33,292 nucleotides of DNA from Bacteroidales bacterium (GCA_016927695.1 JAFGME010000145.1:1-33292), one strand, 5' to 3'. Shown: positions 473 through 31,008, counted from the first letter of the stretch. Numbers and translations: made by a program. Notes: generated from the sequence alone by a model not told the origin.

Positions 473-3001
473 TTATGCAACAAATTTACTTAACGAAATA
501 TAATCCCTCACATAATCCGGAATGATCGTCCTCCACTTCTTTCCTACAGCTTTATAATCTTCGGCGCTAAAGGTCGGGTTCACATTCAGATCGGCAAACT
601 TTTTATGATCAATCAGGCTTCTGACTTTGCTATCGGTGACATAAGACTTGAAAAAGTATTTCAGTGCCGGGATGTTATCGGTTTTATCAGGCTTATAATC
701 CGACAGGAATTTTTCAAACTCTTCCTCCAGCAGTTCATTTTTCGATTTGAAATGTGGAATCAATCCCATGATCTTTTCGATGATCTCCCGGACGGAAATT
801 TTCCTGTCCACTTTGGCCGACCGCCTAAGTTTATCAAGTGTGTAACATTCTTCGGGTTTATTAAGCAGGTTGTCATTTACGTATGTGATCACATCTTCCC
901 AGTTACCAAGTTCTACATTGTCAATGATAAACCGGTCTTCCTTTACCTTGTTTTCAAAATCGAAAAACATCCGGTCAATCTTCATCCCTTCCAACCCTAT
1001 TTTCTGCTCTTTCAGTGTCTTTAAGGGGTCGGGGTCAACATTTTCAAATTCCTCTGAGTAAATGGTTTTGCCATTTCCACCCTCTCCGCCTTTAGTCAAC
1101 CTTGGCAGTTTCAGGATTTCATCATAATTGAATTTTTCCTCAAAATACTCGCAGTTGGCAAAAAAATCGAACAGCTTAAATCTTGTTTTTTCAGGTTCCG
1201 GAACAAGTTCCTTTTGATCATCATTGAAAAAGGTTTCGAGAAAATTATACTTACGGGTTCCACGTCCTTTGATCTGGATGAAGTCGGTAGGTGAAAAAAC
1301 AGGTCGCATCAGGCAAAGATTCAGAATGTCCTGGCAGTCGTAGCCGGTGGTCATCATACCCACCGTAACGCAAACCCTTGTTTTGCTGGTTTTATAGTAG
1401 TCAATGAAGTTCCCTGAACCATTCAGGTTGTTATTGACAAAGTTGACGGTGAATTGCTGTGCACCTGCAATAAATGAAGTGACCTGAACTGCAAAATCGG
1501 AATTGTACTTTCCGGGGTAGAGTTTATCAGCCATTTCATTCAGAATCTGGGTAATTTTAGCCGCATGGTTCTGGCTGACGGTAAATACGATTGTCTTGCC
1601 CAATTCTCCACTAATGGGATCGGGCAGGGCATTTTCGAGGAAAGTCTTACAGAAAATTTTATTCGTTGTTTCGGAATAGAATTTTCGTTCAAAATCCCTT
1701 TGTTTGTATATGGCTTCTTCATCCTCACCATCCTCAACAGGCAACATGATTGAATAACCTTCATCCGAAAGCAACTGAGTGGTTATTTCAGTGCGTGCAT
1801 CCACAACAACCGGATTGACAAGAAATCCTTCCTTTACACCGTTAAGCAGCGAATACCGGTAGGTTGGCTGGCCTGTTTCACAACCAAAAGTACGGTATGT
1901 ATCGAGCAAAATCCTTCTTTCCAGTTCACGGGGATCTTTATGCGAAATTTTGGATGGATCAATCTTGCGAAGATAATCTTTGGGTGTGGCGGTCAATCCC
2001 AGTTTGTACCCCACAAAATACTCGAAAACAGCACGGGAGTTACCACCAATGGAGCGGTGTGCTTCATCGGAAATAACAAGGTCAAAATCAGTAGGCGAAA
2101 ACAACCTGCGGAATTTATTGTCAAATAATAAGGATTGCACTGTGGTCACAACAATTTCAGCACGTCGCCAGTCGTCACGGTTTTCTTTATATATAACAGT
2201 TTTGTAATCATTTTTCAGGTACTTGTTAAATGATTTGAATGCCTGGGATTCGAGTTCGAGGCGATCAACCAGAAACAATACCCTGTTTGCATTGCCTGTT
2301 TTCAGAAAGAGTTTGATGACAGCGGCAGCTACCAGTGTTTTGCCGGTGCCGGTTGCCATTTCAAATAAAAACCGGTCGCTGCCTTTTGTCACAGCATCCT
2401 GGATGGCTTTGACAGCATTTTTCTGGTATTTCCTTAAGAATTTTAAGCCGTTCTTCTTTTTGAAAGCCTCCCGCTCATGCTCGTTCAACCATTGCGGATC
2501 GAGCAAATAATTTGGGTTTTGTGTGAGCGCAACATAATCGTCCTCCACCTTCTCATTAATGAGAAGGACAGGGTTCGGCTGGTGTTTTTTATAACTTCCC
2601 AGTGAGTCGGGGGAAGGGAATTTAGTGATCAGGTAAGGGTTTCCTTTTTTCAGGTCCCAGAAATAATGGATGTTTCCATTGGACAACAACACAAACCTGC
2701 AATCCTGACTTTGGGCATATTTCCTGGCCTGTTCTTTGCCTGCCAGGGGATTCATATTTTCTGACTTGGCTTCAAGAACGATCAACGGAAAGCCTTTGCC
2801 ATCGAGCAGGAGGAAATCGACAAAGCCGCTTTTGGTTTTTTCAAAATCCTGTCCAAATCCGGAAAGGTGGTTTTCAGTGATCCTGACATGGTTCTCCAGC
2901 AGAACATTCGCCGGCCCTGTTTCGTCGTCGAGCAACCTCCAGCCGGCTTCTTCAAGAAGTTTATTGATTTTAATTCTTGCTTTGGCTTCACTGCCCTTCA
3001 T
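473..3001 (-). CDS. hsdR: Type I restriction enzyme subunit R (HsdR, EcoEI-like)
   Basis: An 842-residue motor and nuclease subunit of a type I restriction-modification system, which would translocate and cut unmethylated DNA in complex with HsdM and HsdS. The N-terminal PD-(D/E)xK nuclease shows D62 and E77-A-K79. A superfamily 2 helicase follows, with Walker A ATGTGKT (216-222), the DEAH box (312-315), TATP (337-340) and motif VI QIKGRGTR near 585. The C-terminal third resembles the EcoEI R-protein C-terminal domain. The ATG at 3001 directly precedes a plausible N-terminus. It is shorter than EcoR124-type HsdR (about 1000 residues) but complete. No hsdM or hsdS is in the window; downstream comes only the GxxExxY gene, then the edge. 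The helicase domain alone could suggest another SF2 nuclease, but the domain order favours HsdR. Confidence 0.9.
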   Translation of the reverse strand: MKGSEAKARIKINKLLEEAGWRLLDDETGPANVLLENHVRITENHLSGFGQDFEKTKSGFVDFLLLDGKGFPLIVLEAKSENMNPLAGKEQARKYAQSQDCRFVLLSNGNIHYFWDLKKGNPYLITKFPSPDSLGSYKKHQPNPVLLINEKVEDDYVALTQNPNYLLDPQWLNEHEREAFKKKNGLKFLRKYQKNAVKAIQDAVTKGSDRFLFEMATGTGKTLVAAAVIKLFLKTGNANRVLFLVDRLELESQAFKSFNKYLKNDYKTVIYKENRDDWRRAEIVVTTVQSLLFDNKFRRLFSPTDFDLVISDEAHRSIGGNSRAVFEYFVGYKLGLTATPKDYLRKIDPSKISHKDPRELERRILLDTYRTFGCETGQPTYRYSLLNGVKEGFLVNPVVVDARTEITTQLLSDEGYSIMLPVEDGEDEEAIYKQRDFERKFYSETTNKIFCKTFLENALPDPISGELGKTIVFTVSQNHAAKITQILNEMADKLYPGKYNSDFAVQVTSFIAGAQQFTVNFVNNNLNGSGNFIDYYKTSKTRVCVTVGMMTTGYDCQDILNLCLMRPVFSPTDFIQIKGRGTRKYNFLETFFNDDQKELVPEPEKTRFKLFDFFANCEYFEEKFNYDEILKLPRLTKGGEGGNGKTIYSEEFENVDPDPLKTLKEQKIGLEGMKIDRMFFDFENKVKEDRFIIDNVELGNWEDVITYVNDNLLNKPEECYTLDKLRRSAKVDRKISVREIIEKIMGLIPHFKSKNELLEEEFEKFLSDYKPDKTDNIPALKYFFKSYVTDSKVRSLIDHKKFADLNVNPTFSAEDYKAVGKKWRTIIPDYVRDYISLSKFVA

Positions 3002-21963: not shown

Positions 21964-22486
21964 CAATCACAATATCGGCTATGTGCATGTTTACACGGGC
22001 AACGGGAAGGGAAAAACCACTGCGGCGGCAGGACTGGCTTTAAGGGCAGCCGGCGCGGGGAAAAAAGTGTTTATAGGGCAGTTTGTGAAAGGCAAGCCCT
22101 ATTCCGAAAACGAAATTATCCGGAATAGAATTCCTGAAATCACTGTATGCCAGTACGGAAGGGGTTGTTTTATTTACAATGAACCTACGGCGGAGGATAT
22201 TGCCGCAGCAAAGCGCGGACTTGAAGATGTGCGGCAAAAAATGAATTCAGGCGCCTTTGAGGTCATGATCCTTGACGAGATCAATATTGCCACCTTCTAC
22301 CGGTTGATCAGCGCCGAAGAGGTTCTGACCCTGATCCGTGAGAAACCCTCCGGGCTTGAACTGGTACTCACCGGCAGGTATGCTTCCGCGGAGGTGACAG
22401 AGGCAGCCGACCTGGTTACAGAGATGACAGAGGTGAAACACTATTACAGTCGTGGGATTGAAGCCCGCGAAGGGATTGAATATTAG
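21953..22486 (+). CDS. cobO: Corrinoid adenosyltransferase (CobO/BtuR type)
   Basis: A 177-residue P-loop enzyme that adenosylates cob(I)alamin or cob(I)yrinate diamide. The P-loop TGNGKGKTT (15-23) is near the N-terminus. QFVKGKPYSENE, a short CQYGRGC segment, ILDEINIATFYRLI and ELVLTGRYASAEV with LVTEMTEVKHYY follow the CobA/CobO pattern. The start at 21953 lies within the preceding gene. The stop overlaps the stop of the convergent histidine kinase gene by three bases, with no terminator between. No other cobalamin genes and no cobalamin riboswitch are seen in the window, so a salvage role for B12-dependent enzymes is as likely as biosynthesis. Confidence 0.92.
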   Translation: MLNDNHNIGYVHVYTGNGKGKTTAAAGLALRAAGAGKKVFIGQFVKGKPYSENEIIRNRIPEITVCQYGRGCFIYNEPTAEDIAAAKRGLEDVRQKMNSGAFEVMILDEINIATFYRLISAEEVLTLIREKPSGLELVLTGRYASAEVTEAADLVTEMTEVKHYYSRGIEAREGIEY

Positions 22487-24303
22487 TTTCCCACCGGCAC
22501 CCTTACCGTGGCAATGGTACCGCTTTCGGGGCTCGGTTCATAATTTATTTCGCCGTTGATGGTGTCAATCCGGCTGGCGATGTTGAGCAACCCGATGCCT
22601 GTACTTTTTTCCTTTAAATCAAAGCCTTTGCCGTTATCCTCCACAATAAGGACAAGGTAATTCCGGCTTTTAACAAGTTGCAGGGCGACACGGGAAGCGC
22701 CTGAGTGTTTTATCACGTTGTTTACCAGTTCCTGTGAAATTCGATATAAAGCGATCTCTACGTTTTCATCAAACCTCCGGTCAATACCGAAATGCTCGAA
22801 ATTGTATTTTATATCGCTTTTACCCAGGCTTTTTTCGAGCATGTCACGGATGGTGGGTACCAGCCCTGACTCACTCAGCTGGCGGGGCATCATCTGATGG
22901 GAGATGGTGCGTACCTCCTGGCAGGCATCGTCGAGGATGACCGTGAGCTCGTTCAACTGTTCCGCCCTTCCGGGAGAATCATTGCCGATGGCTCCTGAAA
23001 GACCGGCCCACGAGAGTCTGAGGCCCGAAAGAGTCTGGCCGATTCCGTCATGAAGGTCTTTTGCAATCCTTTTTCGCTCCTCTTCCTGGGCGGTAAAAAC
23101 GGCTTTCATCCCGACCTCTTTCAGCCTGATCCTCTCCTCCTGCAGCGCTGCCAGATGTTTTTGCCTGTTACTGTAAAAGAGAAATGCCCCCGTACCGATG
23201 ATCAGTATGAGTACCAGGGTAAGAACAGTAATCTGACCGCGTTGCTGCGAAATTTTCAGTTGCCCTATTTCGTTTTCCTGGGATAACATCTTTATTTCCT
23301 TTTCCCTTTTTTCGCTCTCGAACCGGGCCTGAAGCTCTTCCAGTTGTTTCATTTTGTTATCATCGAACACTGAGTCATGCACTTCCTTGAATTTCTTATG
23401 AAAATTAAGTGATTCACGGTAGTTGCCTTCGTTTTCATATACTTTAGACAATCCGCGGTAAACCTGTCCCAGCAGGGGAAGGGCTTGGGTTTCGAGGGCA
23501 AGGTTTTCCGCCTGCCGGAAGCTGGACATGGCGCTGCTGTTTTCGCGAAGGTCGGCCTGGACACCTGCCAGGTTAAGGTAGGAATACAACATGCCCATTT
23601 TGTTGTCTTCGCTGATGTCGATTTCAAGGGTGCGTTGAAAATATTCCATTGCTTTTCCGTACTTTTTCTCTTTCGAGTAAAGCTCTCCCAGGTTGTTGTA
23701 TGTCAGCGCTTTACCAGAACGGTTGTCGATCCTTTCGTTGATTTCAAGGGCCTGAAAATACTAGAACTCTGCCGAATCCAGATCTTCCTTGGCATCATAG
23801 ATCGTTCCGATGTTATTAAGGAGCAAAGCACTCACTCTTTCATTTCCAGCCTCCATAATGATCGCAAGAGATTTTTTGTAATAACCAATGGCCTTTTCGT
23901 AATGGCCTAAGTTCTTATTCAGTACGCCGAGGTCATTGTAGGAAGAAGCCAGCATCATTTTATTGCCGATGTTCTCGAGTATCCTGGCTGCTTTTACCTG
24001 TTTTTCCATAGCCAATTCAAAATTTCCTTTGTTTTTATGGATCACCCCTGCAATCTGGTACGACATGGCCTGCAAAGCGCTGTCGCCCCTTTCCCCGGCA
24101 AGGGAAGCTGCCTCTTCAGCATATTCCAGGCACTTGTCGGGGTTTTTGTTGTACTCCTGTTTGGCCACTTTATAAAGCAATGATGCTCTCAAAGAATCTC
24201 CTGCCCCTGCCAGCAGGGCCTCAAGGCTGTCGACATTATATACCTTCTGGGATATTCCCGTCAATGGCAGAATTAAAATGAAAACCATCCATGCATTCTT
24301 CAT
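22483..24303 (-). pseudogene. TPR sensor histidine kinase interrupted by an in-frame TAG
   Basis: One reading frame of 607 codons broken by a single TAG at 23763-23761 (codon 181). Before it: a signal peptide (MKNAWMVFILILPLTGIS) and tetratricopeptide repeats such as ASSYNDLGVLNKNLGHYEKA. After it the same frame continues in-register TPRs (YFQALEINERIDNRSGKALT), then a coiled coil, a membrane segment (about 358-377), a HisKA_3 domain with ERKRIAKDLHDGIGQTLSGL (H418) and a HATPase_c domain (VEDNGKGFDLKE, TGIGLLNIASR). Flanking residues suggest a Tyr or similar codon was lost. Restart at the ATG at 23649 would give a 388-residue kinase with no signal peptide. Normal genes here also end in TAG, so reassignment is unlikely. 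No LuxR-type regulator is adjacent. It follows the LRR gene by 52 bases. Confidence 0.8.
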
Positions 24304-24355
24304 CGGGCATTATATTAATTTGACAACGAGAGTTATATTTTCCGACTATAAAAAA

Positions 24356-26944
24356 TCAGTAATGCACAACTTCACAACCGGGATTTAGCGCCCTGAACTT
24401 TTCAATGCTCTTTTCGCTGACACGGGTATTGAAGCATACCACCTTTTCGAGCTGTTTGCAATTAAACAGGGGTGTGATGTTTTTGATGGATGTATTGCTG
24501 AATTCAATCACCCTTAATTCCGTCATACTTTCAACCGGTTTAAGGTTTCCAACCGATGTTCCTGAAACGTTCAGATATTGCAGGCCCGTTAATGAGGCGA
24601 GTGGTTTCAGGTCTTTTACCGGAGTATTTTGAATGGAAAGACGGGCAAGGCTTGTCATCTGTGCCAGGGGCAAAAGATCGGAAACCGGGCACTGGTTGAG
24701 CTCAAGCCGGGTCAGATGCCTGAACGAAGTCAGGGTGCTGATGTCGGTAACCTGTGTTCCTGACAAAGAAATCTCTTTCAGGTTGCGTAACATGATCAGT
24801 GGCTTCAGGTCGCTGATGCCCCGGTTGTTAACCACTTCCATTTTTTCTGAATACAGCAATGTATGCATTTCTTCCGGCGAGGGCAGGTCGGTAAACGAAT
24901 GTACTTCTTTGAAATATTCTCTCCAGACTTCAGGAAGATTCTGCCACCAATTGTAGAGTTGAGAAGTTTTAAAAACAACGAGGCATCCTGGTCTTTGTTT
25001 CACAAAATCAAAGGACTCCTGGTCGTTCACACCGGATTCATCTGCATAGATGTACTTCAGGTTAAGGTTAACCAAAGGCATCAGACTGCCAATGCGCGTA
25101 TTTTCAATAATAAGTGTCTGAAGTTCAGAGAGAAGCGCCAGGTTGTCGGTTGTTGTTATGGCTGTTCCGGAAACATCCAGGTATTCAAGTTTGAAAAGCT
25201 CCATGAGGGGGCTGAAATCGTTGGCCCCGCTGCCCGAAAGGTTGAGTTTTTTCAGATTATACAATTTCCGGAGGGGTGAAAGGTCGGTGATATCTCCCCT
25301 TCCTGCCAGGTCAAGTTCTTCAATCCTGAGCAATCCGTGAAGTTCTTCTTCTGTCGGTGTTCCGGTGAGCCCTAATGAAAGGGAGAAAATATTTTTCCAT
25401 GAATCATTCATTTCCGCCCAGCTTTTCTTCAGTTCCTCTGATTCGTAAACCACCAGGCAGCCGGGATTGTCTCTCATGAACCGGATGGCATCGCTGCCCG
25501 ATATCAGTGTATTGTTGCAGTAAATCCTCTTAAGCCCGGGGTGTCCGTTCAGGGGTTCGAGAGAGCGGACTCCGGTGTTATTGATAGACAAATACTCGAG
25601 ATCATGCAAATCTTTGAGCGGTTCGATGGAAACCACCAGTGTGTTGTTGCAATTCAGCAGGCGGAGGCTCACAAGTTCCGAAAGGGGTTCGAGGTTGCTG
25701 ATAAAAGTACTGTTTATGCTCAGGGTTTCCAGGTTTGTAAGATTTGCCAAAGCGCCCGGATCGTAAATCTCAATGCTGTCACATTCAAGATGACGGAGCG
25801 CGGGCAGCGCTTCAAGCGGCGTAAAATCAATGATCTTGTTTCCTGAACAATGGATCTTCCCGAGGCGGTGAAGATGGATGATGGGGTTCAGGTCAGTAAT
25901 CATTGTGTTTTCAATGTTCAGTTGCTGCAGTTGTGACGAATATTGCAGGGGCGTGAGATCTTTCACCGGAATTCCCCGGCAATCCAGGGCTTCCAGCTTG
26001 TTGAGGCTCCTGAGCGGAGTGAGGTCATTCACCAGTGTATTGGAGCAGTCCAGGTGCCTGAGTTCCGACAGTTCACTCAGAGGGGAAAGGTCTCTGATGG
26101 TCAGCATGCCTGATACATCCACTTCCGTTTTCTTCAGGATGGCATAGATTGCACTGTACAATTGCTTTGTGTCATAGCTCAAAGTGTCAGTGGCGGTTGT
26201 GTCACGGGGTGTTTTGTCAAACAGGGTTTCCATCCCCCTGACATCCGTGCCTGTCTTGTTATTATGACGCACCACGATAAGGCTGTCCTCAAAATACAGT
26301 ATGTCGGAAAGCAGTATGCTGTCGCCCGCCTGCTTTTCTTTTCCGAAGTAATTTCTCCATGCCGGATCCATGCCATTCCACCATTTTCTAACCTCCTCTT
26401 TCTCATTGAATTTGTGGGTGTAGATGCTTGCGATTTTAAAATCATCCCTTGTGAGGTCAAGGTTTATCTCTACATATCTTGTTTTCTGAGAATTCACACT
26501 GTCATTGCGCAGGGTCACTCCATCCAGTTTTCTGATGAGGGTAACAAGAAAAAAATGCCCGCCATCTGCATTGATGTAATGTGTGATATCGGTGATCCCG
26601 AATGTAAAATCCACACTGTGGTAAAAGAAGCCTATATCTTTCAGATAAGCTTGTACATCCTTATATATGGGATATTCCCTGTTTTCATCCAGATCATCTT
26701 CAATCTGAACTTTATCATGAAGAAAAATTTTGCTATAGCTTTCATTGATGACGATCTCTTTTTCTTTGAAAGGATTGTCAGGGTTCCCGATAAAATTCAA
26801 CGTACCCTCCAGGAAGCTTACCAGACGGGTCACCTGGGTTTTATAGGATTTTATCTCCTCGTTGCTCAGAGGGGATTTATCCTGAGTCCGGCCTGCTGTT
26901 GCGAAAAAAACCGGCAAAAGGAGCAGCCATAAATATTTTGTCAA
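24356..26944 (-). CDS. Exported leucine-rich-repeat protein with three internal modules
   Basis: A protein of about 862 residues with a signal peptide MTKYLWLLLLPVFFATAG. The TTG start at 26944 is preceded by GGAG at good spacing; an ATG at 27088 would add 48 unlikely residues and overlap the upstream gene further. An N-terminal domain (about 25-180, with NFIGNPDNPFKEKE and YKDVQAYLKDIGFF) comes first. Then come three modules, each opening with a Trp motif (WWNGMDPAWRNYF 188, SWAEMNDSWKNIF 508, WWQNLPEVWREYF 666), continuing with 22-residue LRRs of the form LxxLxCxxTxVxDLxPL, and closing with (N/R)PGCxVV (493, 651, 854). LRRs of this type bind proteins. The function is unknown; it is likely periplasmic or surface-exposed. 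It is probably co-transcribed with the three genes upstream. Confidence 0.8.
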   Translation of the reverse strand: MTKYLWLLLLPVFFATAGRTQDKSPLSNEEIKSYKTQVTRLVSFLEGTLNFIGNPDNPFKEKEIVINESYSKIFLHDKVQIEDDLDENREYPIYKDVQAYLKDIGFFYHSVDFTFGITDITHYINADGGHFFLVTLIRKLDGVTLRNDSVNSQKTRYVEINLDLTRDDFKIASIYTHKFNEKEEVRKWWNGMDPAWRNYFGKEKQAGDSILLSDILYFEDSLIVVRHNNKTGTDVRGMETLFDKTPRDTTATDTLSYDTKQLYSAIYAILKKTEVDVSGMLTIRDLSPLSELSELRHLDCSNTLVNDLTPLRSLNKLEALDCRGIPVKDLTPLQYSSQLQQLNIENTMITDLNPIIHLHRLGKIHCSGNKIIDFTPLEALPALRHLECDSIEIYDPGALANLTNLETLSINSTFISNLEPLSELVSLRLLNCNNTLVVSIEPLKDLHDLEYLSINNTGVRSLEPLNGHPGLKRIYCNNTLISGSDAIRFMRDNPGCLVVYESEELKKSWAEMNDSWKNIFSLSLGLTGTPTEEELHGLLRIEELDLAGRGDITDLSPLRKLYNLKKLNLSGSGANDFSPLMELFKLEYLDVSGTAITTTDNLALLSELQTLIIENTRIGSLMPLVNLNLKYIYADESGVNDQESFDFVKQRPGCLVVFKTSQLYNWWQNLPEVWREYFKEVHSFTDLPSPEEMHTLLYSEKMEVVNNRGISDLKPLIMLRNLKEISLSGTQVTDISTLTSFRHLTRLELNQCPVSDLLPLAQMTSLARLSIQNTPVKDLKPLASLTGLQYLNVSGTSVGNLKPVESMTELRVIEFSNTSIKNITPLFNCKQLEKVVCFNTRVSEKSIEKFRALNPGCEVVHY

Positions 26945-27044
26945 AACATTTCTCCGGTTCAATAAAAGACTTGATGTTTTACGGCAGCAGCCTGTCCGTT
27001 TGCCGGCATAATCACTTTGTATTAATTGCCTGATACACATATCT

Positions 27045-27878
27045 TCAAGGGATATAGAATTCCAGCAGCTCCTTTTTCTCTTTTTCATTGATCCGGAAAA
27101 GTTTGGAGATCAGCCAGCCTGAATTGTAATCGGGCCGGTTGAAGTAGGAAAGCTCAAAATACCAACCATCCACCTGGAAGAAATGAAACTTCAGGTTATC
27201 CGCGCTTTCGAATTTCATATTTCCCTGCTTGACTTCATAAAAAAGCAGGGTAAGATAGTCGGGCTTGTAATTGTTGTGTGCAAAATACTCGGTATATGAG
27301 GGATCCTTGAACACCTTATGCATGTTCATGAAATCGAGTTCATGGCTGAGGGGGTGCAGGAACGACCGTTTGATAACCTCTGTTTCGCCCTTATGGAATT
27401 TTTTTAGAAATTTATCAAAGTACACATTGGTAAGCACCCATTTATACCCTAAATTTTCCTGCTCTAATTTCAGAAAAAGGAGAAGTTTTTCCTTTTTACC
27501 ATAATACCTGAAAGAGGAAGAAAGCTCGGCGAACCAGCAATCTCCGTGAAAATCAAGGAAAAGAGGTTCAGTGTCACGGGTTATATACTCAATGAATTTA
27601 ATCCTGAGGCTGTCAGGCGATGAGCTGGTGTTCCTGTCGAACAGCATATTCAGGTACATGATCCTGAAATCCTTGTCGTGATAAAGGCTGTCGCCTTTGT
27701 AATATCTTTTTCCGAATTTGTCCTCTTCTCCGTTAAATCTTCTGAAAAACTGGTTCACCTGTTTTGTCTGGGCATAAAAATAACTCTCATCTCCTGTAAT
27801 CCCATCCAGGCCGGGTTTCTGTGCCTGTGCGTTCAGGAGAAAAAGAACGGAAAAAAATCCGGAGAAAAGGATTTTCAC
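27045..27878 (-). CDS. Exported protein of unknown function, 277 residues
   Basis: A secreted protein with a signal peptide MKILFSGFFSVLFLLNAQA and cleavage before QKPG. The mature part, rich in aromatic residues, has a FFRRFNGEEDKFG motif near its start, then FLDFHGDCWFAELSSSF, and a possible second similar fold near VDGWYFELSYFNRP. The pattern of helices followed by a strand-rich end (YKWVLTNVYFDKF) is reminiscent of NTF2-like folds; this is a guess from appearance. The start overlaps the stop of the preceding gene (27875-27878), so the two are translationally coupled, and its stop lies about 100 bases before the TTG start of the LRR gene. I do not recognise a named family. Confidence 0.75.
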   Translation of the reverse strand: MKILFSGFFSVLFLLNAQAQKPGLDGITGDESYFYAQTKQVNQFFRRFNGEEDKFGKRYYKGDSLYHDKDFRIMYLNMLFDRNTSSSPDSLRIKFIEYITRDTEPLFLDFHGDCWFAELSSSFRYYGKKEKLLLFLKLEQENLGYKWVLTNVYFDKFLKKFHKGETEVIKRSFLHPLSHELDFMNMHKVFKDPSYTEYFAHNNYKPDYLTLLFYEVKQGNMKFESADNLKFHFFQVDGWYFELSYFNRPDYNSGWLISKLFRINEKEKKELLEFYIP

Positions 27879-28453
27879 AACTTCATCGTTTCTTTGATCC
27901 TGATATCTCCAAGGAGTACATCCCAGAATCCGATAAGGCGACCTGCGATTTGAGTTTCCTTGCGTTTCACGTAAACGGTGATATCCTTTTTTGTGATATC
28001 CTGGTAAATAAGGCTCCCTTCCAGGTCGAATCCGGAAAACTTCTGGAAGATGGTGATCACACCCACGTAGGATCCATCGGGCTGGCGTTCCAGGTCGCTG
28101 ACGTACTCAATTTTATACCATTCAATTTCCACCCTGCTATAATTCAGGCGCATGAGTCTTTCAAAATACACACGCACCGGGTAGTAATTGATCTCTGGTT
28201 TATAGAGGGAAGAAACACCCACTTCGCTGCCTTCCATGAATAGTTCTACGGCCCTCTCTATCACCCTGTTCGCTTCCGAGAACGGGGTTTCCTTGTCGCC
28301 GATGATACTGATGTATTTGCTTAAATCCCTGACCTTTTCCAGGGCAAGGCTGTCGATGGCTTGTTTTCTTTCGGGAGAAATGTCCTCCTGGGCAATGCCC
28401 GGCAAAAAAACCATGCAAAGCAAAACGGAAAATAATGATGCTTTATATTTCAT
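27875..28453 (-). CDS. Exported protein of unknown function, 192 residues
   Basis: A secreted protein with a signal peptide MKYKASLFSVLLCMVFLPGIA and cleavage before QEDIS. The mature sequence parallels the N-terminal domain of the LRR protein encoded downstream. LSKYISIIGDKETPFSEANR lines up with the LRR stretch around NFIGNPDNPFKEKE; both continue through a YPVRVYFERL / YKDVQAYLKD segment and a beta-rich end with an aspartate-rich YQDITKKDITVYVKRK. It lies five bases after the lipoprotein gene and overlaps the next gene by four bases. No catalytic motif is seen. A small partner-binding or ligand-binding domain shared by the operon is a reasonable inference. Confidence 0.75.
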   Translation of the reverse strand: MKYKASLFSVLLCMVFLPGIAQEDISPERKQAIDSLALEKVRDLSKYISIIGDKETPFSEANRVIERAVELFMEGSEVGVSSLYKPEINYYPVRVYFERLMRLNYSRVEIEWYKIEYVSDLERQPDGSYVGVITIFQKFSGFDLEGSLIYQDITKKDITVYVKRKETQIAGRLIGFWDVLLGDIRIKETMKL

Positions 28454-28458
28454 GTGCC

Positions 28459-29136
28459 TTATTTTTTAATTAATTCCAACTCTGTGATCAATCCGTAATC
28501 ATCGGTTTTTACGCGATAAACCCTGCTCGTGTATCTTTTCTGATCTTTGAGATAATGGAGATAATCTTTGATAACGGCAGGTTTGTCATAATCCACGATA
28601 TCTCCTTCCCGGCTTATAATGATCAGCACAGGGACCTCATTGTCAGCAAAAAGTTTGAGGGTTTCGCTTATTTTGCTGTTGGCTGCGTCGATACTTCTGG
28701 CGCCGGCGATCTGCTCAAAATAATCATCAAGATATCCCCCCGATTCTTTCTTTTTCTTTTCTTCCTCTGCTTCCCTGAGCTTTCGCTCCTCCTCTGCCTT
28801 AAGTTTTTCGAGTTCTTCCTTTGCCGCAATGATTTTTGCCTCCACCTGGGAGATCAGGTCCTGCACCTCCGGATCGTTCAGGTTCTGGCTCCTGATATTG
28901 AGCAGCCGTCTCTCCATTTCAGACAGCGGCATGGTACCGTCATCGTTGAGGATGGCCCTCAGATCGGCCTTTGCATTTTCTATTTTTTCGGCATATTCCC
29001 TTGCGGCCTGTTCCATGGCCAGTTTTTTCTTGCTTTTGCATCCTGCTGTACCAAAGGTAAGGCCTCCTGCCAGCAGCAGTAACATCACCCTGAATACCAG
29101 CGAATAACCTAATCCTGTAAAGATTCTGTTCGGCAT
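28459..29136 (-). CDS. Coiled-coil lipoprotein of unknown function
   Basis: A 225-residue predicted lipoprotein. A hydrophobic leader MLLLLAGGLTFGTAG runs into the lipobox cysteine C33 (TAGC), followed by KSKKK. A charged coiled coil rich in Glu, Lys and Ala covers about 38-130 (AAKEELEKLKAEEERK). The C-terminal domain of about 90 residues contains LKLFADNEVPVLIIISREGD and a YLHYLKDQKRYTSRVYRVKTD stretch of unknown family. The start at 29136 gives a 17-residue N-region before the hydrophobic core; Met18 is an alternative. It is the first gene of the four-gene exported-protein run, with a candidate -7 box TATTTTTG at 29211-29204. Confidence 0.75.
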   Translation of the reverse strand: MPNRIFTGLGYSLVFRVMLLLLAGGLTFGTAGCKSKKKLAMEQAAREYAEKIENAKADLRAILNDDGTMPLSEMERRLLNIRSQNLNDPEVQDLISQVEAKIIAAKEELEKLKAEEERKLREAEEEKKKKESGGYLDDYFEQIAGARSIDAANSKISETLKLFADNEVPVLIIISREGDIVDYDKPAVIKDYLHYLKDQKRYTSRVYRVKTDDYGLITELELIKK

Positions 29137-29203
29137 AATGAATATATTTGAAAGAAAGATTGTTTTAAAGCTTCAACCGCCTTTCCGGCCCTCTTATTAT
29201 GGA

Positions 29204-29211
29204 CAAAAATA
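29204..29211 (-). promoter_or_regulatory. Candidate -7 box for the exported-protein operon
   Basis: On the minus strand TATTTTTG fits TAnnTTTG exactly, about 68 bases before the lipoprotein ATG. No TTTG is found at the -33 spacing. The 100-base gap to the divergent radical SAM gene also holds TATCTTTTG on the plus strand (29220-29228), a near match. Confidence 0.35.
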
Positions 29212-29236
29212 TCTAATTTTATCTTTTGTTTCAGGT

Positions 29237-30253
29237 ATGAAAACAAAATATTTCAACATACCGGTATTCATTCCGGAACTGGCCTGCCCTTTTCGCTGCA
29301 TCTATTGCAACCAAAGGAAAATTTCAGGAACATTGCAGGTCCCGGAACCCGCATCTGTTAACAATATCATCGACACCCGCCTGGCAACCCTCCCTCAGAA
29401 AGGGTCGCATATTGAAATCGCATTTTTCGGAGGGAATTTCACAGGTCTGCCGCCCGCATTGCAAAGAACTTATCTTGACATTGCCGTGAAATATTATCAT
29501 AAAGGGCTCGTTTCAGGCATCCGGCTTTCCACCAGACCTGATTATATCAACGAAGAAACAATCGCATTGTTGTTGAAATATCCGGTCACTACGGTCGAGA
29601 TAGGCGCTCAGTCGCTGGATGAAGATGTCCTGATTTGCTCGGGCAGGGGGCATACGGTTGCCGATGTGGAACTGGCTTCTGCCCTGGTGAAAAAGGCCGG
29701 GTTTTCACTGGGTTTACAGATGATGACCGGTCTGCCGGGAGACAGCCGGGAGAAGTCTGTCCGCACAGCCCAAAAGATCGCAGCGTTGGGAGCCGACATC
29801 GCCAGGATATACCCCACACTTGTGATCAAAGGCACTGTGCTGGAAAGGATGTATTGCGAAGGTGAATACAAACCACAGACGATGGAAGAGGCCGTTGATC
29901 TGACGGCGAAACTCATAATGATATTTGAAAAAGCAAAGGTCCGGGTGATCCGTACCGGGCTGCATGTGTCCGAAGGCCTCCTGAACGGACATGATTTGGT
30001 GGCAGGGCCCTTTTCTCCCTCCTTTGGTGAGATGGTCAGGTCAAAATTGTGGGAAGAAGCGCTCTGGTCTTTGCTGTGCATGGAAGAGAATAAGAAAATC
30101 ACCATCGTCGTTTCCCCGGGCGAGTTGAATTACGCCATCGGTTACCGCTCTTCCAACAGGAACATGCTTATGAAAAGGTTCGGGCAGGTGATTTTCAGGA
30201 AAAGTGAAATTATGAGCGGGAGGGAATTCGGGGTTGAACTGCAGGGACATTGA
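29237..30253 (+). CDS. Radical SAM protein, Elp3-like
   Basis: A 338-residue radical SAM enzyme. The cluster-binding motif CPFRCIYC (C17, C21, C24) sits right after the IPVFIPELA start. Further signatures are EIAFFGGNFTGLP, IRLSTRPDYI, TVEIGAQSLDEDVL and GLQMMTGLPGD, the wording of the Elp3/oxygen-independent radical SAM group. The acetyltransferase domain of true Elp3 is absent, so this is a shorter paralogue. The C-terminal part reads KVRVIRTGLHVSEGLL and GPFSPSFGEMVRS. The ATG at 29237 is preferred over 29138, which would add 33 residues. The substrate is unknown. A DUF6873-like gene follows by 68 bases on the same strand. Confidence 0.85.
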   Translation: MKTKYFNIPVFIPELACPFRCIYCNQRKISGTLQVPEPASVNNIIDTRLATLPQKGSHIEIAFFGGNFTGLPPALQRTYLDIAVKYYHKGLVSGIRLSTRPDYINEETIALLLKYPVTTVEIGAQSLDEDVLICSGRGHTVADVELASALVKKAGFSLGLQMMTGLPGDSREKSVRTAQKIAALGADIARIYPTLVIKGTVLERMYCEGEYKPQTMEEAVDLTAKLIMIFEKAKVRVIRTGLHVSEGLLNGHDLVAGPFSPSFGEMVRSKLWEEALWSLLCMEENKKITIVVSPGELNYAIGYRSSNRNMLMKRFGQVIFRKSEIMSGREFGVELQGH

Positions 30254-30321: not shown

Positions 30322-31008
30322 ATGCCGGCAATAGTCAGTAAAAATATACCCGGGAAGGCCATTGTGAACCTTGCCGGGTTTACGGAGGTTATCCTTTTTG
30401 AAACCCGGGGCATTGTTTATGATGCCATCGCCTGTCATCCAGATGTGTTTTTCTGCCAGGCAGGGGAAAAGATGATATATTCTCCACTGCTTCCCCAGAT
30501 CATCATCAACCGGTTAACATCATTGGATATACCCCTTCTTGAAGGACAATCCGGTCCGGGTAAAAAATACCCGGAAACGGCCGCATTCAATGCCGTTTGT
30601 ACCGGAGATGCCCTCATCCATAACCTGATGGCCACAGACGGCAGGATTTTGTCTGAAGCACATCACCTGCAGCAAATTCATGTTGAGCAGGGTTATTGCA
30701 GATGTAACCTGCTTTTCACGGACCAAAGAAGCTATATCACATCCGACAGGGGCATCCATTTGAAACTGGAACGGGAAGGGTTCAGCGGCCTTTATGTGGA
30801 TCCCCGGGGGATACTGCTTCCCGGTTTCGGGCACGGATTTTTTGGCGGCGCCTGCGGCATCAGCGGCGATACGGTGTATTTCACAGGAAGCCTGGGTCAA
30901 TACCCTGAAGGAAAAAAGGCGGCTTCTTTCCTCGAAAGCCATGGCCTCAAAATAGTGGAGCTTTGCACCGGGCCTCTGTTCGACGGAGGAGGCATCCTTT
31001 TCGTATAA
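30322..31008 (+). CDS. DUF6873-like protein (possible guanidine-modifying-enzyme fold)
   Basis: A 228-residue protein that resembles the family annotated as DUF6873, reported to share the guanidino-modifying (GME) fold. Visible points are LLEGQSGPGKKYPETAAFNAV, a Cys pair in VEQGYCRCNLLFTDQRS, GHGFFGGACGISGDTVYFTG and the ending LCTGPLFDGGGILFV. The final DGGGILFV corresponds in form to the GGGN-C region of amidinotransferase-type enzymes but carries no cysteine, so classical guanidino hydrolysis is doubtful. The family call is from memory and moderate. It lies between the radical SAM gene and aspS in the same orientation; a link to either is speculative. Confidence 0.7.
   Translation: MPAIVSKNIPGKAIVNLAGFTEVILFETRGIVYDAIACHPDVFFCQAGEKMIYSPLLPQIIINRLTSLDIPLLEGQSGPGKKYPETAAFNAVCTGDALIHNLMATDGRILSEAHHLQQIHVEQGYCRCNLLFTDQRSYITSDRGIHLKLEREGFSGLYVDPRGILLPGFGHGFFGGACGISGDTVYFTGSLGQYPEGKKAASFLESHGLKIVELCTGPLFDGGGILFV

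Follow-up and report, generated by a model that had tools for sequence, protein, structure and literature searches.

Organization of the locus

The analysed window, a stretch of 33,292 nucleotides from a Bacteroidales bacterium (GCA_016927695.1 JAFGME010000145.1:1-33292), carries on its minus strand four closely packed genes, here termed A to D, which constitute a conserved gene set of the Bacteroidales and of one further family of the same class. Gene A (28459..29136) codes for a lipoprotein of 225 amino acids, as judged from its open reading frame (ORF) and lipobox, and is separated by 5 bp from gene B (27875..28453), the product of which is an exported protein of 192 amino acids with a predicted NTF2-like fold. 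According to ORF reading, gene C (27045..27878) starts with a GTG codon, overlaps the stop of B by 4 bp, and encodes an exported protein of 277 amino acids. The longest ORF of gene D (24356-27088) comprises 910 amino acids; with the TTG at position 26962 as probable signal-peptide start, it yields an exported modular leucine-rich repeat (LRR) protein of 868 amino acids (24356..26962), which was recognized by Pfam LRR_4. The spacing between C and D amounts to 82 bp from the TTG start, or to an overlap of 44 bp if an ATG is used. This layout agrees with the first-pass annotation of the sequence, which had described four close-packed minus-strand genes that all carry export signals; N-terminal signals were identified by eye on all four products.

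Co-inheritance and linkage of the four genes

The distribution of the four genes was determined in 247 genomes of the order, a sample that spans many families. Searches with B found a match in 52 genomes, 43 of which were counted as containing orthologues based on the E-value, with about 60-84% identity to the window protein. The profiles of C and of the N-terminal domain of D detected relatives in 45 and 44 genomes, respectively (both at E below 1e-50), and the profile of A in 42 genomes, every one of which also carried B. The genome sets obtained for A, B, C, and the N-terminal domain of D were essentially identical: A and B shared 42 genomes with no A-only and one B-only case, and B and C shared 43 with no B-only and two C-only cases. 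In the lone genome with B but without A (G163) the B gene lies at a contig end, and the two C-only genomes are 68% complete (G241) or carry a diverged B (G181). Fisher p values for the pairs among A, B, and C ranged from 3e-44 to 8e-47, although these overstate the evidence because the genomes are related by descent and not independent. The near-perfect co-occurrence therefore shows that the set, which is carried by approximately one in six of the sampled genomes of the order, is not a product of chance.

Gene order was assessed in 80 loci from a titled genome collection, with each count restricted to loci containing enough sequence. A lies immediately upstream of B in every one of the 78 loci whose upstream sequence is long enough, C is found near B in 48 of 76 loci, and D in 42 of 69. 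Conserved co-occurrence of at least three of the four genes, which the first-pass annotation had named as the observation that would support a system, is thus found both at the loci and across the genomes. Outside the order, a second family of the class (f128) has contiguous A-B-C-D genes in five genomes, with G322 and G357 among the nearly complete ones. Beyond the order, phylum-wide searches with B profiles yielded few matches (11 of 395 genomes and 10 of 296). All relatives belong to the Bacteroidota, the searches having covered that phylum and its viral contigs and plasmids; no relative was found on either the viral contigs or the plasmids. Conservation this strong in exported proteins that lack a name points to a fixed job in the cell envelope.

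Features of the encoded proteins

Gene B is the most conserved of the four, with a mean column identity of 78% in 72 orthologues, followed by C (57%), D (51%), and A (43%), a ranking that is rough as the sets of relatives differ. The AlphaFold2 (AF2) model of B (predicted local distance difference test score, pLDDT, 84; predicted template modelling score, pTM, 0.74) contains helices at residues 27-51, 58-70, and 93-101 and strands at 77-82, 89-92, 107-117, 129-142, 148-169, and 172-188, and predicts an NTF2-like fold in which N-terminal helices pack on a curved antiparallel sheet to form an alpha-beta cone. Since Foldseek gave an E-value of about 0.001, VIA was used as a second look and aligned B with 3rob_A (Z 15.6, root mean square deviation 2.3 over 130 residues), with other NTF2-like proteins ranking below. 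Neither the window proteins A to D nor any of the 72 B orthologues scored above the curated cut-off of any Pfam NTF2-like family (DUF3828, DUF3887, DUF4878, and others), and a PDB sequence search retrieved no relative of B. When distant relatives of B are included, conservation alternates along two strands, being 0.73 at odd and 0.41 at even positions of residues 129-142 and 0.63 at even and 0.35 at odd positions of residues 148-169, and the residues Q137, Y150, D152, T154, and K156 are kept. Such a pattern would arise if a site were maintained on a single face of the sheet, and suggests that one face of B carries a family-wide site while the other is free to specialize.

The N-terminal region of D (residues 26-188; 26399..26887, minus strand) aligned with B in hhalign at an E-value of 3.1e-05 over 157 columns (probability 73%), which establishes the homology of this domain to B and places it in the NTF2-like superfamily. 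It is followed by the LRR region (24359..26107, minus strand), in which Pfam LRR_4 matched 15 stretches (E 1.1e-47). The repeats form three blocks at residues of about 286-500, 561-657, and 711-868, with block ends also placed at 500, 658, and 861. Since a W(W)..W(R/K) motif occurs at each of residues 194, 515, and 672, the layout is one of three motif-plus-LRR blocks. The N-terminal domain is the best conserved part of the protein (mean conservation 0.66 versus 0.52-0.55 in the LRR blocks), and the length of D is nearly constant among relatives. The repeats are of the internalin-like type, but D reached only 191.6 bits against the NCBIfam cut-off of 1600 for InlA and fell far short of the other internalin models as well. 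The protein ends in LRRs, Pfam detected neither a C-terminal sorting domain of the type IX secretion system (T9SS) nor a barrel, and its PDB sequence matches were confined to LRRs.

The AF2 model of C (pLDDT 79, pTM 0.73) consists of two helix/strand halves, and it is plausible that these represent tandem NTF2-like units. Two of the five best VIA rows are Bacteroides structures titled NTF2-like or DUF4348 (3sbu, 4mjf). Foldseek retrieved no match to C with an E-value below 0.001, a PDB sequence search found no relative, and alignments of C with the profiles of B and D were limited to signal peptides or weak stretches.

Lipoprotein A possesses a signal peptide with a lipobox, in which Cys33 is followed by KSKKKLA. 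This cysteine is unchanged in all of the 33 relatives that were aligned, KS follows it in 62 of 79 relatives, and KSKKKLA is typical. Surface lipoproteins of the Bacteroidota carry an acidic export signal after the lipid-bearing cysteine; no such signal follows the cysteine of A, which has the lysine-rich KSKKK instead. The middle region is helical and charged and varies in length among relatives, and the small, conserved C-terminal domain (DYDxPTTIxxYLNYLKDQK ... GxITELELIKK) contains the invariant residues D182, Y183, D184, and P186. Searching the PDB with A yielded chance-level matches only.

For A, B, and C, no family in Pfam or NCBIfam scored above its curated cut-off, whereas Pfam identified the LRRs of D and the domains of an adjacent kinase, and none of the four proteins matched PADLOC-DB (anti-phage defence) at an E-value of 0.01. 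Two further proposals of the first-pass annotation are borne out by these results, namely that the families are not recognizable as characterized ones, A, B, and C being unnamed in Pfam, NCBIfam, PADLOC, and the PDB, and that one domain is used twice, in the 192-residue protein B and at the N-terminus of the LRR protein.

Distant B'-C' cassettes

Diverged homologs of B and C are termed B' and C', and B' is followed by C' in most of a group of distant loci (L071-L075, L077-L080), which appear to be uncommon among the genomes sampled. These cassettes resemble the window in the order of B' and C' and in that a nearby protein often has a D-type N-terminal domain, but differ in that other modules and caspase-like (C14) proteins replace the LRRs and lipoprotein A. 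The D-type domain is combined with FGE-sulfatase and Fib_succ_major modules in L071 and with C-termini of no assigned family in L073, and in L075 an outer-membrane barrel is fused to a relative of this domain. The exported caspase-like proteins, which display GHG and DCC motifs, are encoded directly upstream of B' in four of the loci (L071 16968-18137; L074 453-1559; L079 7562-8731; L080 7723-8850). Their C-terminal domain looked by eye convincingly like that of A; this homology is not claimed because hmmsearch gave only 2-11 bits and hhalign an E-value of 0.06 over 15 columns.

Two other kinds of genes were observed beside these cassettes. Very large exported proteins, some with C-termini that by eye look T9SS-like, are encoded (L075 3578-9628, L077 11606-19501, L078 442-7221) directly upstream of a protein with a double D-type domain and the B'-C' pair, and in L072 (1079-9187) several protein kinase genes, a PP2C-like gene, and an FHA-like gene, as judged by eye, lead into the cassette.

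A speculative and on balance unlikely extension of these findings is that the Bacteroidota possess an undescribed class of modular periplasmic recognition complexes, in which a constant NTF2-like pair, B-C, would be combined with an exchangeable recognition arm and an exchangeable first gene. The arms (LRR, FGE/lectin-like, Fib_succ_major, or outer-membrane barrel) would share an NTF2-like docking domain, and the first gene would supply a lipid anchor in the window and an exported caspase-like protease in the distant cassettes. If this were true, proteolysis outside the cytoplasm could in some species be set off by recognition; the exported caspase-like proteins raise the testable question of regulated envelope proteolysis.

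Proposed function and alternatives

We propose that A, B, C, and D form an extracytoplasmic system whose products build a periplasmic assembly with an LRR arm for binding of a client, a reading to which we assign a probability of roughly 0.45. In such an assembly, the four exported products would come together in the periplasm, where lipoprotein A would tether them to a membrane and the highly conserved NTF2-like B would act as hub. The N-terminal NTF2-like domain of D would mediate its docking on B, much as a stand-alone NTF2 protein forms a heterodimer with an NTF2 domain, C would probably add two further NTF2-like units, and the three-block LRR solenoid of D would serve as recognition arm that holds an envelope client. 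The most likely role of the complex is that of a non-catalytic scaffold or recognition device, which fits the published picture of other NTF2-like families, for which non-catalytic ligand binding and regulation via operon partners have been argued (PMC3924330). The periplasmic side is suggested because D lacks a T9SS domain and a barrel and because A is lysine-rich after its lipobox.

Several observations weigh against this proposal. C and D stay together and usually lie just downstream of A and B, but are sometimes located elsewhere in the genome: inserted genes separate the two pairs in L127, L138, and L163, and in G035 and G036 C-D are present on another contig than A-B. The retention of C-D even where it is not linked to B speaks, however, for the set. 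Moreover, one genome (G058) contains B and C without any match to D. The median gaps are 6 bp between A and B and -4 bp between C and D, but 171 bp and variable between B and C, and the cassette therefore looks like two tightly coupled pairs. Because of this variable spacing, the occasional separate location of C-D, and the genome without D, A-B and C-D may be sub-units that act separately. The VIA matches of C are weak (Z 3.6-4.7 for the five best rows), and the C-terminal domain of A has a weak hhalign match to B (probability 29%, E 6e-4, 47 columns). Finally, the periplasmic location rests on the absence of known surface signals, and co-inheritance is no proof of binding, so that the physical complex is inferred.

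Display of D on the cell surface, where its LRRs would bind a surface ligand as in internalin-type proteins, is an unlikely alternative that nevertheless draws on several features: the internalin-like type of the repeats, the ligand-binding-type modules (FGE-sulfatase, Fib_succ_major) of the distant cassettes, and the outer-membrane barrel fused there to a relative of the D-type domain. The lack of both a T9SS C-terminal domain and a barrel in D, its almost constant length, and the KSKKK sequence of A in place of the acidic surface signal argue against it. Somewhat more doubtful is a role as extracytoplasmic enzyme or ligand carrier, in which the NTF2-like cavity of B would bind or convert a small molecule, as happens in many SnoaL/ketosteroid-isomerase-like proteins. 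The VIA fold neighbours of B do include LinA, scytalone dehydratase-like proteins, and ketosteroid isomerase, and distant relatives keep the polar set Q137-Y150-D152-T154-K156; however, none of the enzyme families searched matched by sequence, tight coupling to LRR and lipoprotein partners would be odd for an enzyme, and NTF2-like folds are often non-catalytic (PMC3924330).

It is improbable that the cassette belongs to the type IX secretion apparatus or assists it. The restriction of relatives to Bacteroidota genomes within the searched sets and the giant genes with C-termini that by eye look T9SS-like and that precede some distant cassettes would be consistent with such a role, but T9SS genes were not observed around the cassette, and the cassette is not a core T9SS component because PorV is near-universal (237 of the 247 genomes, 220 over the cut-off) whereas the cassette occurs in about 43. 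Co-occurrence with PorV was also considered as a measure of T9SS association and discarded, as the near universality of PorV in the order leaves it without discriminating power.

Adjacent genes

A sensor kinase gene with tetratricopeptide repeats (TPRs) and HisKA_3/HATPase domains (22483..24303, minus strand), identified by Pfam and ORF reading, begins 52 bp past D in the same orientation, as the first-pass annotation had noted, but a TAG stop codon at 23761-23763 breaks its reading frame. That the envelope proteins sense and this kinase transmits is a very remote prospect and, as a general feature, has largely been refuted: a same-genus relative (L096) does have an intact kinase frame of 613 codons followed by a response regulator at the same place after D, but among 51 loci with enough sequence the kinase matched in only five, with that relative as the single true orthologue. 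No response regulator was found at the window locus, which has no room for one because a convergent gene follows the kinase. The regulator of this genome most similar to that of the relative (60% identity) is an orphan on another contig (L189 1453-2112; G000:C211:5701-6297), with no kinase beside it within the 3.6-kb locus. Given the broken frame, the missing regulator, and a true orthologue only in the same genus, the kinase is an incidental neighbour outside the system. It is probably decaying, and a base-call error in the assembly may be another source of the TAG. Of the undescribed four-gene envelope system with kinase readout that had been suggested from the sequence, the gene set holds, and the readout by the kinase is not supported.

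On the other side of the set, a divergent radical-SAM gene (29138-30253, plus strand) adjoins A and keeps this upstream position in 42 of 66 loci, where the gene at 30322-31008 and aspS are frequently close by. Farther away in the window, a large helicase-like gene (473-3001, minus strand), which by eye resembles the R subunit of a type I restriction system, lies beside a small GxxExxY-type ORF (24-452).

Comparison with known systems

No description of the four-gene set, its co-inheritance, or its link to the B'-C' cassettes was found in the open papers and family libraries searched, and genes A to D represent a concrete four-gene target for genetics. Individual components have known counterparts. 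Internalin-type proteins share the LRR type of D, but D scores far under the NCBIfam cut-offs and has another N-terminal domain and inserts between its LRR blocks. The DUF4348/NTF2-like proteins 4mjf and 3sbu of Bacteroides show a weak structural match to C (Z 3.6-3.8), which is too low for a claim of kinship, and no sequence match. In eukaryotic mRNA export, NXF1, which combines LRRs with an NTF2-like domain, and its partner NXT1 likewise pair a stand-alone NTF2-like protein with an LRR-fused NTF2-like domain, and 4wyk appeared in the Foldseek list for B. The domain order, compartment, and lineage differ, however, and the resemblance is treated as an analogy only, with no homology beyond the fold.

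The families DUF3828, DUF3887, and DUF4878 (PMC3924330) are also extracytoplasmic NTF2-like proteins with a proposed non-catalytic ligand-binding function that are linked to partners via operons or fusions, but they have no sequence match to B, and the window set differs by its several NTF2-like units, predicted in part, combined with a lipoprotein and an LRR arm. The folds themselves are established ones. What appears to be new is the combination of the four genes, their joint inheritance, and the connection to the B'-C' cassettes, and the set is akin to extracytoplasmic NTF2-like modules that work with operon partners.

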